Source: a virus. Taken from it: 28,480 nucleotides of DNA. Position 1 is the first letter of the stretch, and every line of letters starts with the position of its first letter. The stretch lies in IMG/VR virus record IMGVR_UViG_3300037963_000763, positions 1 to 28,480 of that record. One strand, 5' to 3'. Position numbers and translations under genes: made by a program. Of the stretch, positions 2,153 through 5,342 are shown in pieces. A model generated the notes under the pieces. It was given only the letters and a program-made list of their open reading frames with translations. It was not told the DNA's origin and ran no database searches.

Positions 2153-2181
2153 TTTACTACTGTTCGTTTTTGCTGTATACT
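2153..2181 (+). promoter_or_regulatory. Candidate sigma70 promoter for nrdJ
   Basis: A TTTACT box (2153-2158, 4 of 6 to the -35 consensus) is followed after 17 bases by TATACT (2176-2181, 5 of 6 to the -10 consensus). Transcription would start near 2188, about 100 bases before nrdJ. It lies in the longest gap on the plus strand. It is a pattern match only; AT-rich DNA gives such matches by chance, but position and spacing are good. Confidence 0.45.
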
Positions 2182-2192
2182 TACCTATACAG
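2173..2192. promoter_or_regulatory. Operator-like perfect dyad over the -10 box
   Basis: CTGTATA (2173-2179) and TATACAG (2186-2192) are perfect 7-bp inverted arms around a 6-bp spacer. The dyad covers the candidate -10 element at 2176-2181. It has the CTGT...ACAG ends of a gammaproteobacterial LexA box but is four bases too long between them (N12, not N8), so it fits an unknown dimeric repressor or a coincidental palindrome better than LexA. Confidence 0.4.
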
Positions 2193-2242
2193 TCTTTGAA
2201 GAAGAGGAGTTAAAAGTATTTATTATTATTTCTTCAAAGACT
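2191..2242 (+). promoter_or_regulatory. 13-bp stem-loop in the nrdJ leader
   Basis: AGTCTTTGAAGAA (2191-2203) is the exact reverse complement of TTCTTCAAAGACT (2230-2242), with a 26-base loop carrying an unpaired GAGGAG. If transcription starts near 2188 the structure sits at the very 5' end of the mRNA, where such stems are known to protect transcripts from decay. No T-run follows, so it is not a standard terminator. The right arm could alternatively pair with AGTCT at 2247-2251. Confidence 0.55.
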
Positions 2243-2286
2243 TTATAGTCTATCATAGTTATTTAATTTGAGGGGATGTTTTATTT

Positions 2287-4200
2287 ATGGATGCATATCA
2301 AAGTTACATTCACAAAAGTAGGTATGCTCGTTACCTGCCCGAAGAAGGAAGGCGAGAAACCTGGGAAGAGACTGTTCAAAGATACGTTCAGTTTTTCAAG
2401 GACAAAGGGTATTTAAAATCCAAGGAAGCTGAAGAACTCTATGAAGCTATCCATAACCTAGACGTTATGCCTAGCATGAGAGCTTTGATGACAGCCGGTG
2501 GAGCAGGTGCATTAGATAGAGATAATGTTGCAGGGTTTAACTGCTCGTATCTTGCAATAGATAACCCCAGAGCCTTTGATGAGATGATGTACATCTTACT
2601 ATGTGGTACTGGTGTTGGATATAGTGTTGAACGGCAGTATATTAACAAGTTACCTGAAGTAGAAGAGGATTTCCATGAAACAGAAACCATCATTCATGTC
2701 GCAGATTCAAAAATTGGATGGGCGAAATCATTTAGAGAGTTGGTATCGCTGCTTTATTCAGGCCAGATACCAAAATGGGACGTTAGTAGAGTTAGACCTT
2801 CAGGTGCACCCCTCAAAACTTTTGGAGGCCGGGCAAGTGGCCCTGAACCTCTTATCGAACTCTTCAACTTTACGGTCGGAGTATTTAAAGGTGCGTCTGG
2901 AAGAAAACTTACGTCCCTTGAATGTCACGATCTGGCATGTAAAATCGCAGAGATTGTCGTGGTTGGAGGCGTTCGCAGATCAGCCCTCATCTCGCTTAGT
3001 AACCTCACAGATGACAGACTGAAGAGAGCCAAGCATGGTAACTGGTGGGATCATACACCACACAGAGCCTTGGCAAATAACTCTGCTTGCTATACAGAGA
3101 AGCCAGACTTTGAAGCCTTCCTCAATGAGTGGAGTAGTCTATATGAGTCGAAGGCAGGTGAGCGAGGGATCTTTTCCAGAGTAGCTAGTCAAAAGCAAGC
3201 AGCAAAGAACGGTAGACGAGATGCTAACTACGCTTTCGGTACAAATCCATGTTCGGAAATAGTGTTACGTGGGCCAAAATTAGACAAGAATGGACATCCA
3301 ATACCAAATACAGGGGGACAGTTCTGCAACCTAAGTGAAGTGGTTGTTCGACCTGAAGATACTATCGAAGAATTGAAGTGGAAGGTACGCCTAGCTACAA
3401 TCCTGGGTACACTTCAAGCTACACTGACAGACTTCAGATACCTGCGTGGTATCTGGAAGAAGAACACAGAAGAAGAAGCATTGCTTGGTGTCAGCTTGAC
3501 AGGGATCATGGACAATTCTGCTATGACCTTAGAGAATCCAAGACTTCCAGAACTTTTAGAGGAATTAAAGAATGAAGCTATCAAGACTAATAAGGAGTGG
3601 GCTAAGAGGTTGGGCATCAAGCAGTCTGCGGCAATCACTTGCGTCAAGCCCAGTGGGACGGTATCGCAGCTCGTTGATTCAGCCAGTGGTATTCATCCTC
3701 GTTATAGTCAGTACTACATTCGTACAGTACGAGCCGACAAGCGTGATCCCCTCTGCACTGTCCTGAAGGACGCAGGAGTGCCCTGTGAGGATGATCTACG
3801 TTCACCTAGTACCCTAGTATTTAGTTTTCCTAAACGCTCACCAGAGGGCGTATACACAGCCTCAGAGGTGAGGGGCTATGATCAGCTATTACTATGGGAA
3901 GTCTATCAAGACCACTGGTGTGAGCATAAACCCAGTATGACATGTTACTACCGGGACGATGAGTTTCTAGAGATAGGGCAATGGGTCTACAATAAGTTTG
4001 ATTCTATATCAGGCATAAGCTTCTTACCCTATGATGGTCATGTATACGAACAAGCTCCGTACCAACCTATCTCAAAGGAGAAATACGAAGAGCTTATCGC
4101 AGACTTTCCTAAAGAGTTTGATTGGGATATCATTGAAGAGCAAGACAACACTGAAGGCACACAAACATTGGCGTGTACAGGAGATAGCTGTGAAATCTGA
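2287..4200 (+). CDS. nrdJ: Class II (adenosylcobalamin-dependent) ribonucleotide reductase
   Basis: This 637-residue enzyme reduces ribonucleotides to deoxyribonucleotides, supplying dNTPs for phage replication. It matches the monomeric class II type known from Lactobacillus leichmannii. All five expected catalytic cysteines are visible: C86 (FNCSYL) and C347 (GQFCNLS) as the redox pair, C322 in N-P-C-S-E as the thiyl-radical cysteine with N320 and E324 beside it, and the C-terminal C630-TGDS-C635 pair that regenerates the active site. The PSGTV loop (455-459) would bind substrate phosphate. It is about 100 residues shorter than the Lactobacillus enzyme. The ATG follows GAGGGG ten bases upstream. 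It has its own long leader with promoter-like and stem-loop elements. Being class II, it needs coenzyme B12 but no oxygen and no second subunit. The next gene starts 11 bases before its stop. Confidence 0.96.
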   Translation: MDAYQSYIHKSRYARYLPEEGRRETWEETVQRYVQFFKDKGYLKSKEAEELYEAIHNLDVMPSMRALMTAGGAGALDRDNVAGFNCSYLAIDNPRAFDEMMYILLCGTGVGYSVERQYINKLPEVEEDFHETETIIHVADSKIGWAKSFRELVSLLYSGQIPKWDVSRVRPSGAPLKTFGGRASGPEPLIELFNFTVGVFKGASGRKLTSLECHDLACKIAEIVVVGGVRRSALISLSNLTDDRLKRAKHGNWWDHTPHRALANNSACYTEKPDFEAFLNEWSSLYESKAGERGIFSRVASQKQAAKNGRRDANYAFGTNPCSEIVLRGPKLDKNGHPIPNTGGQFCNLSEVVVRPEDTIEELKWKVRLATILGTLQATLTDFRYLRGIWKKNTEEEALLGVSLTGIMDNSAMTLENPRLPELLEELKNEAIKTNKEWAKRLGIKQSAAITCVKPSGTVSQLVDSASGIHPRYSQYYIRTVRADKRDPLCTVLKDAGVPCEDDLRSPSTLVFSFPKRSPEGVYTASEVRGYDQLLLWEVYQDHWCEHKPSMTCYYRDDEFLEIGQWVYNKFDSISGISFLPYDGHVYEQAPYQPISKEKYEELIADFPKEFDWDIIEEQDNTEGTQTLACTGDSCEI

Positions 4201-4348
4201 AGAGTTTAGACAGGGTGTTCAAGACTGTATGGAAGGTACTCCTTGTAAGTCTGGTATGTCTGAGGACTACCAGAAAGGTTATGCCTATCAATATGAAACA
4301 GAGCAGCGATGGTCTGCTCAATATGATATAGAGGTAGTCTATGAATAG
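4190..4348 (+). CDS. Small phage protein with GTG start (52 aa)
   Basis: The start is a GTG at 4190, chosen because AGGAGA lies at 4179-4184, five bases upstream. It overlaps the end of nrdJ by 11 bases, over the codons of the last catalytic cysteine. The product (FRQGVQDCMEGTPCKSG, then Y-Q-K-G-Y-A-Y-Q-Y) has the F-x-x-G ... Y-x-x-G-Y-x-x-x-Y pattern I associate with small uncharacterised phage proteins. An ATG-initiated version would lose 13 residues, and the longer frame reaching back to 4031 is a shadow of nrdJ. The next gene overlaps by eight bases. Function unknown. Confidence 0.72.
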   Translation: MKSEEFRQGVQDCMEGTPCKSGMSEDYQKGYAYQYETEQRWSAQYDIEVVYE

Positions 4349-4574
4349 TGAACTGGCAATCAAGATCGAGGATGCTTGGGTCAGGGCATGGGTGATGTGT
4401 ATGGGTGTCAATCCACCAAACAGACACAGCATGTTGAAATTATTTCAGACATTCTGTTATAATAGATTAAAAGGTGGGGATGTTTTATCTTTGTCTCAAG
4501 AAGAATTTGAGACTGCTGTATTTGAAACAATTCCTAAATTCGTAGAAGCTCTCGCATCTGGCGAGATTCAATAG
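4341..4574 (+). CDS. Hypothetical protein (77 aa)
   Basis: The ATG at 4341 overlaps the preceding stop (ATGAATAG) and follows GAGGT five bases upstream. The product is largely helical: WVRAWVMCMGVNPPNRHSML near residues 13-32, then an acidic half with SLSQEEFETAVFETIPKFVEAL. No membrane span is convincing, and no catalytic motif is seen. It sits between nrdJ and the single-strand binding protein, so a replication-linked role is possible but unproven. I do not recognise the family. Confidence 0.75.
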   Translation: MNSELAIKIEDAWVRAWVMCMGVNPPNRHSMLKLFQTFCYNRLKGGDVLSLSQEEFETAVFETIPKFVEALASGEIQ

Positions 4575-4586
4575 AGGAGAAAGACT

Positions 4587-5027
4587 ATGGCAGTAATTGA
4601 AGGAACTGCGTATTGGAATAATATCACCACTCCTAATACAAAGTTTGAACCTGTGTACCAGACTAATCTGATTGTACCAGATGATGTCCTTGAGAAGTTC
4701 AAGGCCGATGGCTATTCAGTTAAGGAGCTGAACGAAGGCCAGGCTTTGGTTATCAAGCGGAAGGTTGCTAAGAAGGGGGGTGGTACTAATCCTGCACCTA
4801 AACTGCTTGATAAGGATAAGCAGCCGTTGGATGCTTTAGTAGGTAATGGGTCAAAGGTTCGTGTACAGTATCGACCTTGGCAAACTACCAATTCTTATGG
4901 TACTTTCAAAGGGCTTGATCTCCAAGGTATGCAAGTACTTGAGTTAGTTGAGTATGGTGATTCTGCTGCTGATGGAGAAGAACTTGGCTTTGTAGGGGCA
5001 GAGAATGATGCTGCCGATGAACTATGA
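4587..5027 (+). CDS. Single-stranded DNA-binding protein (phage type)
   Basis: This 146-residue protein resembles phage ssDNA-binding proteins of the T7 gp2.5/DUF2815 kind. It opens with EGTAYWNNITTPNTKFEPVY, a beta strand and aromatic pattern typical of the OB-fold N-terminus of these proteins, followed by the YQTNLIVPDD strand and a basic, Gly-rich loop (KRKVAKKGGG, about residues 57-66). Its last 20 residues are strongly acidic, as in gp2.5 and SSB, where the tail contacts polymerase and helicase. A good ribosome site (GAGGAGA) precedes the ATG. It would coat single strands at the fork and aid annealing, working with the primase-helicase and polymerase downstream. The call rests on overall pattern and context. 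Confidence 0.8.
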   Translation: MAVIEGTAYWNNITTPNTKFEPVYQTNLIVPDDVLEKFKADGYSVKELNEGQALVIKRKVAKKGGGTNPAPKLLDKDKQPLDALVGNGSKVRVQYRPWQTTNSYGTFKGLDLQGMQVLELVEYGDSAADGEELGFVGAENDAADEL

Positions 5028-5245
5028 GTGAGCAAGAAGAAGCAACATTTACTCATGGGGATATCTCGTACAAGTTTAGCGAACTTGATGACTATTCGCA
5101 AAAGTGTTATCAACTTATAATGAAAGTCACCAAGGAGATCGAGCAGCTTGAATCTGATGTAGCTATAAAAAAGGCTGCTTCGATCTATCTCTCTAAACAA
5201 ATACTATCCAACATGGATAAGCAGAAGGATGATGAGGGGCGATAA
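5024..5245 (+). CDS. Small acidic protein coupled to the SSB gene
   Basis: The ATG overlaps the SSB stop (ATGA), indicating coupled translation. The 73-residue product begins with acidic residues, then THGDISYKFSELDDYSQKCYQLI, followed by a heptad-like helix (EIEQLESDVAIKKAASIYLSK). This resembles small phage proteins with a G-x-x-Y-x-x-x-x-L start and a coiled-coil end (DUF6447-like, from memory). Its TAA stop lies inside the loop of the terminator hairpin at 5235-5258, so it closes a transcription unit. Likely a soluble helical dimer; function unknown. Confidence 0.72.
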   Translation: MSEQEEATFTHGDISYKFSELDDYSQKCYQLIMKVTKEIEQLESDVAIKKAASIYLSKQILSNMDKQKDDEGR

Positions 5246-5258
5246 GCCCCTTATTTTT
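5235..5258 (+). terminator. Rho-independent terminator containing a stop codon
   Basis: GGGGC (5236-5240) and GCCCC (5246-5250) pair around a five-base loop GATAA, extended by A5235-T5251 and a G-T wobble, and are followed by TTATTTTT. The loop holds the TAA of the preceding gene. This is the clearest intrinsic terminator in the window and would end or attenuate the nrdJ-SSB transcript before the primase gene. Confidence 0.75.
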
Positions 5259-5260
5259 CT

Positions 5261-5296
5261 ATATGCTTTAATATCTTTCGAGATATGTCTGCATAT
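5261..5296. promoter_or_regulatory. Nested 36-bp palindrome before the primase gene
   Basis: Outer arms ATATGC (5261-5266) and GCATAT (5291-5296) and inner arms ATATCT (5271-5276) and AGATAT (5281-5286) are each perfect inverted repeats, with TTCG as central loop and symmetric 4-base internal loops. It could be a dimer or tetramer binding site on DNA, or an RNA hairpin with a UUCG tetraloop. There is no T-run after it, and no convincing -35/-10 pair in the 46 bases that remain before the primase start. Confidence 0.5.
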
Positions 5297-5342
5297 CTTG
5301 GAATTATTTATTGATGTTCAACCCTATATAAACAGGTGAATC

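Follow-up and report, generated by a model that had tools for sequence, protein, structure and literature searches.

A conserved probable promoter with a stem-loop at its predicted transcript start in front of the RNR gene of a marine phage

The gap before the RNR gene

The window analysed here covers 28.5 kb of a virus record and belongs to a marine phage. Its DNA polymerase was ~50% identical to those of the pelagiphages HTVC115P, HTVC103P and HTVC104P, and all three shared its gene order (early genes, SSB, primase-helicase and polymerase, with the structural genes opposed). Based on its GC content (37%), the phage could be placed among the 'group IV' genomes, whose hosts are not known (PMC8528129). 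A search for a single-subunit RNA polymerase gene was negative, as it also was in the control genomes. In HTVC103P (L240), gp30 (4807–5064), located upstream of the SSB gene, is annotated as a putative LexA-like repressor; the scan of small proteins of the window showed no recognisable counterpart.

A gap of 149 bp (2138–2286) separates a small early gene (1913–2137) from the ribonucleotide reductase (RNR) gene (2287–4200). The same gap was present at 94–98% identity in four close relatives (L002/L216; L003/L236, the 51.7-kb record G002; L202/L215; L217), which together with the window form the five-sequence alignment used throughout. The features of the gap and of the genes behind it were:

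2153–2181, plus strand: sigma70-type promoter, -35 TTTACT, 17 nt, -10 TATACT; hexamers invariant in the five sequences
2173–2192, unstranded: candidate operator, CTGTATA-N6-TATACAG, a perfect dyad covering the -10 and start site
2187–2189, plus strand: predicted transcript start, +1 at ~2188 from the position of the -10; the hairpin starts there
2191–2242, plus strand: 5' stem-loop, arms 2191–2203 and 2230–2242, 26-nt A/U-rich loop 2204–2229
2185–2248, plus strand: stem extension, 2185–2189 with 2244–2248, C2190/T2243 mismatch between; invariant in the five sequences
2270–2275, plus strand: Shine-Dalgarno (SD) sequence of the RNR gene, GAGGGG, not part of the hairpin
2287–4200, plus strand: class II (adenosylcobalamin-dependent) RNR gene (phrog_367, 7.6e-177; Pfam RNR_Alpha, RNR-II_ins_dom)
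4341–4574, plus strand: small gene of the RNR-SSB unit, function not assigned, conserved in relatives
4587–5027, plus strand: Gp2.5-like ssDNA-binding protein (SSB) gene of the same unit (phrog_112)
5024–5245, plus strand: second small gene of the unit, function not assigned
5231–5260, plus strand: intrinsic-terminator-like hairpin with a T run, conserved in the five sequences

The conserved hairpin at 5231–5260 likely marks the end of the transcription unit, which suggests that the promoter drives RNR, the small gene, SSB and the second small gene. The gap before the helicase gene (5246–5342) was also conserved, and carried a terminator together with a second, 12-bp hairpin (5276–5303) in which one pair changed to G-U in relatives. 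The RNR of the window was 637 aa long versus 623 in relatives, and around 3201–3350 identity to G002 fell to ~50%, suggestive of a replaced or inserted segment.

The gap was among the most conserved stretches of the aligned 5-kb region. Variable columns numbered 5/15 at 2138–2152 versus 10/134 at 2153–2286, placing the onset of conservation near the -35, and 72 of the 230 four-fold sites in RNR varied across the same five sequences. Every one of the least variable 134-nt segments in the 5 kb started at 2164–2206. RNR homologues of other phages (65–75% identity) nearly all abutted the upstream gene (median upstream gap -1 nt; single exception 117 nt) and the helicase relatives (~60%) had no RNR match in the corresponding region, tying the gap to the present RNR insertion. 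Neither a covariance model nor an exact search for the promoter pattern found further copies of the whole leader, and a 21-mer from the loop also matched AT-rich sites bearing no relationship to it.

Promoter and stem-loop

The candidate sigma70 promoter of the original prediction was present, with the -35 at 2153–2158 and the -10 at 2176–2181 (9/12 matches). Its 17-nt spacing falls within the 16–18 nt required of such hexamers, and its -35 is weak (4/6). By count alone the match is not above background, as the first 10 kb of the window held 30 sigma70-like sites versus 26 expected. The -10/start segment, CTGTATACTTAnCTA, had exactly two occurrences in G002, one at RNR and one within TTGACA-17-TATACT, the early promoter of the divergent gap that separates terS from the first early gene. 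This early copy contained the left dyad arm without the right, and in a close relative, L252, it reads CTCTATAATTAACTA. The left arm is therefore best read, from these sequences, as -10 context rather than as half of an operator.

The stem-loop placed by the original prediction at the 5' end of the mRNA was a perfect 13-bp stem and the longest perfect inverted repeat in the 28.5 kb. Dinucleotide shuffling gave an expectation of 0.025 such stems per window (~1/40) and 0.0006 per gap. Five further pairs across a single mismatch bring the stem to 18 pairs, and this extension (2185–2189) overlaps the right dyad arm. Aligning the gap across relatives, as had been proposed, revealed a compensatory pair (G2198-C2235 to A-U in three relatives), a change of C2194-G2239 to U-G in L217 that keeps the RNA pair and breaks the DNA palindrome, and no broken stem pair in the five sequences. 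Paired cells amounted to 90/90 in the stem versus 36–53% in controls with slid partners. The probability of two substitutions of the same pattern landing on partners was P = 0.0015; 47/500 pair shuffles reached the observed score, which with five sequences makes this statistic suggestive at best. The covariation amounts to a single event among close relatives, for which template-switch mutation is a possible origin.

In predicted folds the stem had a probability of 0.84–0.99 for any assumed 5' end between 1913 and 2188 (0.76 in one relative). An RNA starting at 2187–2189 would have its first nucleotides inside or adjoining the stem, so that, given the predicted start, a stable hairpin lies within ~4 nt of the 5' end. 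RNAalifold over the whole gap preferred a different fold, and shuffle z-scores of the leader were modest (-0.6 to -2.1). A two-state switch between a dyad hairpin and the stem was rejected; nearly every fold kept the dyad hairpin at ≤0.24 (0.48 in one), with the stem dominant. The stem is no intrinsic terminator, lacking a T run after 2242 and not being among the terminator-like sites. The upstream hairpin at 2114–2163 was discarded as a terminator on account of its different fold in L217 and L236.

The loop was almost invariant (one variable column over 26 nt), which hints at a further function. The exposed GAGGAG emphasised in the original prediction was indeed found at 2204–2209 in the window, but it was not conserved, reading GAGAAG in the other four sequences, and was rejected as a functional loop motif.

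Early promoters of related lineages

The early promoters of four related lineages (11–12/12 matches) each carried a perfect hairpin at +1 or +2, the same layout as at RNR, with stems of differing sequence:

G002/G004: AGCCC/GGGCT
G006/G012: AACCC/GGGTT
G008: GAACCC/GGGTTC
G011: TGACC/GGTCA

As background, a stem of ≥5 bp begins at 1.1–1.3% of positions. The layout is not universal, since the hairpin was absent from the early promoter of cultured HTVC115P and weak in those of HTVC103P and HTVC104P. A promoter of this kind was also absent from the RNR gap of HMO-2011. The leftward terS promoters (TTGACA-17-TATAMT) in the divergent gaps of G002, G004, G006, G008 and G011 had no hairpin; in all five, and in the annotated isolate HTVC115P (54230–54266), the terS ATG follows the predicted +1 by ~1–4 nt, and the terS mRNAs would thus be nearly leaderless.

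Explanations for the gap and likeness to known systems

The reading we favour, at a probability of roughly 55%, is that the gap is a host sigma70-type promoter whose built-in hairpin sits at the 5' terminus of the RNR-SSB mRNA and protects it. Host sigma70-type RNA polymerase would start a separate transcript of RNR, small gene, SSB and small gene at or within ~3 nt of +1, and this RNA would begin with a stable stem-loop of 13 predicted pairs, or up to 16 with a start at 2187. The ribosome-binding site (2270–2275) would stay outside the main stem, which ends at 2248, and showed weak local pairing only. Hidden from pyrophosphohydrolase and RNase E-type decay by the hairpin, the 5' end would allow the RNR-SSB mRNA to remain abundant during replication. 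Several observations fit this poorly: a mere cap would not need a nearly invariant loop, the 5-bp extension begins upstream of the predicted +1, the -35 is weak, and the cultured relatives do not keep the early-promoter layout. The single covariation event, the different whole-gap fold and the modest z-scores also count against it.

Little is known of how marine phages without their own polymerase time and sustain dNTP synthesis. A +1 hairpin encoded with the promoter, which related lineages repeat at their early promoters beside nearly leaderless terS transcripts, would offer a simple rule by which the transcript starts and mRNA stability of uncultured phages in this group could be predicted. 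The promoter and hairpin are parts of known kinds; a repressor-binding site separate from them is possible.

Alternatively, the leader may exert translational control, either with the 5' arm sequestering the pyrimidine-rich 3' arm UUCUUCAA away from the SD UUGAGGGG, or with a loop-binding protein feeding back on RNR; we consider this doubtful. The almost invariant loop would suit it, RNAalifold on the gap alone returned 3' arm-SD pairing, and in folds lacking the 5' arm this pairing reached 0.93, 0.73, 0.49 and 0.49 in the four relatives. RNA control of a comparable sort operates at T4 genes 43 and e (PMC3014915). However, anti-SD pairing was weak (0.05) in the window's own sequence, and folds that included the 5' arm were dominated by the stem in 5/5 sequences from nearly every start tested. 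The alternative fold also showed no two-sided covariation and contained some broken pairs, and no Rfam family matched.

The dyad was found as originally described, a perfect pair of arms (2173–2179 and 2186–2192) over the -10, and a phage or host repressor bound over the -10 and start could block RNR transcription until removed. This is an unlikely account of the gap, despite a centre near -5 that is typical for repressors and despite the invariance of 14/14 arm bases in the five sequences, where the spacer varied once. Of the dinucleotide-shuffled gaps, 8% contained such a dyad (arms ≥7, loop ≤10), which alone is therefore not beyond chance. The left arm is explained by the -10 element, the right by the stem, and the early promoter has the first without the second. 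The suggested search of the rest of the genome returned a single perfect copy per genome and no further one in four records of this phage group, hence no regulon, and none of the small window proteins that were scanned was recognised as a DNA-binding regulator. Of the proposed regulation by both a DNA-binding protein and an RNA structure, the promoter and RNA stem-loop were thus upheld and the protein at the dyad was not; that the gap controls dNTP supply is something we infer.

A collection search using the exact dyad as its term gave, among the matches listed, at least nine unrelated T4-like contigs (L094, L103, L110, L121, L130, L142, L146, L150 and L189) whose nrdA-nrdB gap carries CTGTATA-N6-TATACAG over a promoter-like -10 before nrdB, with differing spacers. 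This favours an operator, but the invariance of these arms is by construction, ~32 of the 91 distinct dyad sites listed were intergenic, making one RNR match unsurprising, and cultured T4-like relatives lack such an nrdA-nrdB gap. With the dyad itself as the query and so many of the listed sites intergenic, the nrdB match may be coincidence, and we report it as a lead rather than proof. The same gaps contain another inverted repeat, ATACAGCC-N5/6-GGCTGTAT, that overlaps the dyad, and the two repeats could form competing RNA hairpins.

It is improbable that the 18-pair stem is an RNase III type processing site on read-through from the early operon, with the promoter match incidental. The extension does require an RNA started at or before 2185, and read-through is likely given that the terminator-like repeat at 2114–2163 was not kept in L217 and L236. 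Against this, the -35 and -10 were as conserved as the stem, the start segment also occurs in the early promoter, and other promoters likewise have a hairpin in register with +1. Most improbable is a shared operator at the -10 serving one kind of regulator at RNR promoters of unrelated marine phages, class II here and class I nrdB in the T4-like contigs.

Cobalamin and other riboswitches occur upstream of RNR genes. The present leader resembles them in preceding an adenosylcobalamin-dependent RNR gene, but at ~99 nt it matched no Rfam covariance model at gathering score, with chance-level matches only up to E 10, and was rejected as a riboswitch. Like the RNA operators and leader hairpins of T4 genes 43 and e (PMC3014915), it has a hairpin ahead of a replication gene's start codon, although its stable stem does not occlude the SD and has no known binding protein. 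The dyad shares the half-sites CTGTATA/TATACAG with the LexA (SOS) box but, as the original prediction recognised, has the wrong spacing: the spacer is 6 rather than 2, giving CTG-N14-CAG where CTG-N10-CAG is required. With one copy per genome, a LexA site at 2173–2192 was rejected.

The E. coli ompA and papA leaders have 5'-terminal stem-loops that stabilise the mRNA. As there and in the T7 gene 10 leader, the stem-loop lies at the predicted 5' end, the ribosome-binding site is outside the main stem and the gene would be a strongly expressed phage gene. Stem-loops are reported to protect mRNA (PMC7509114); that of T7 gene 10 raised expression 1.5–3-fold along with the mRNA level (PMC6146998), and B. 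subtilis RppH requires ≥2 unpaired 5' nucleotides (PMC3997798). The phage leader differs in its longer, nearly invariant A/U-rich loop and in its use of a host polymerase promoter, and by analogy with these systems its hairpin may stabilise the RNR-SSB mRNA.
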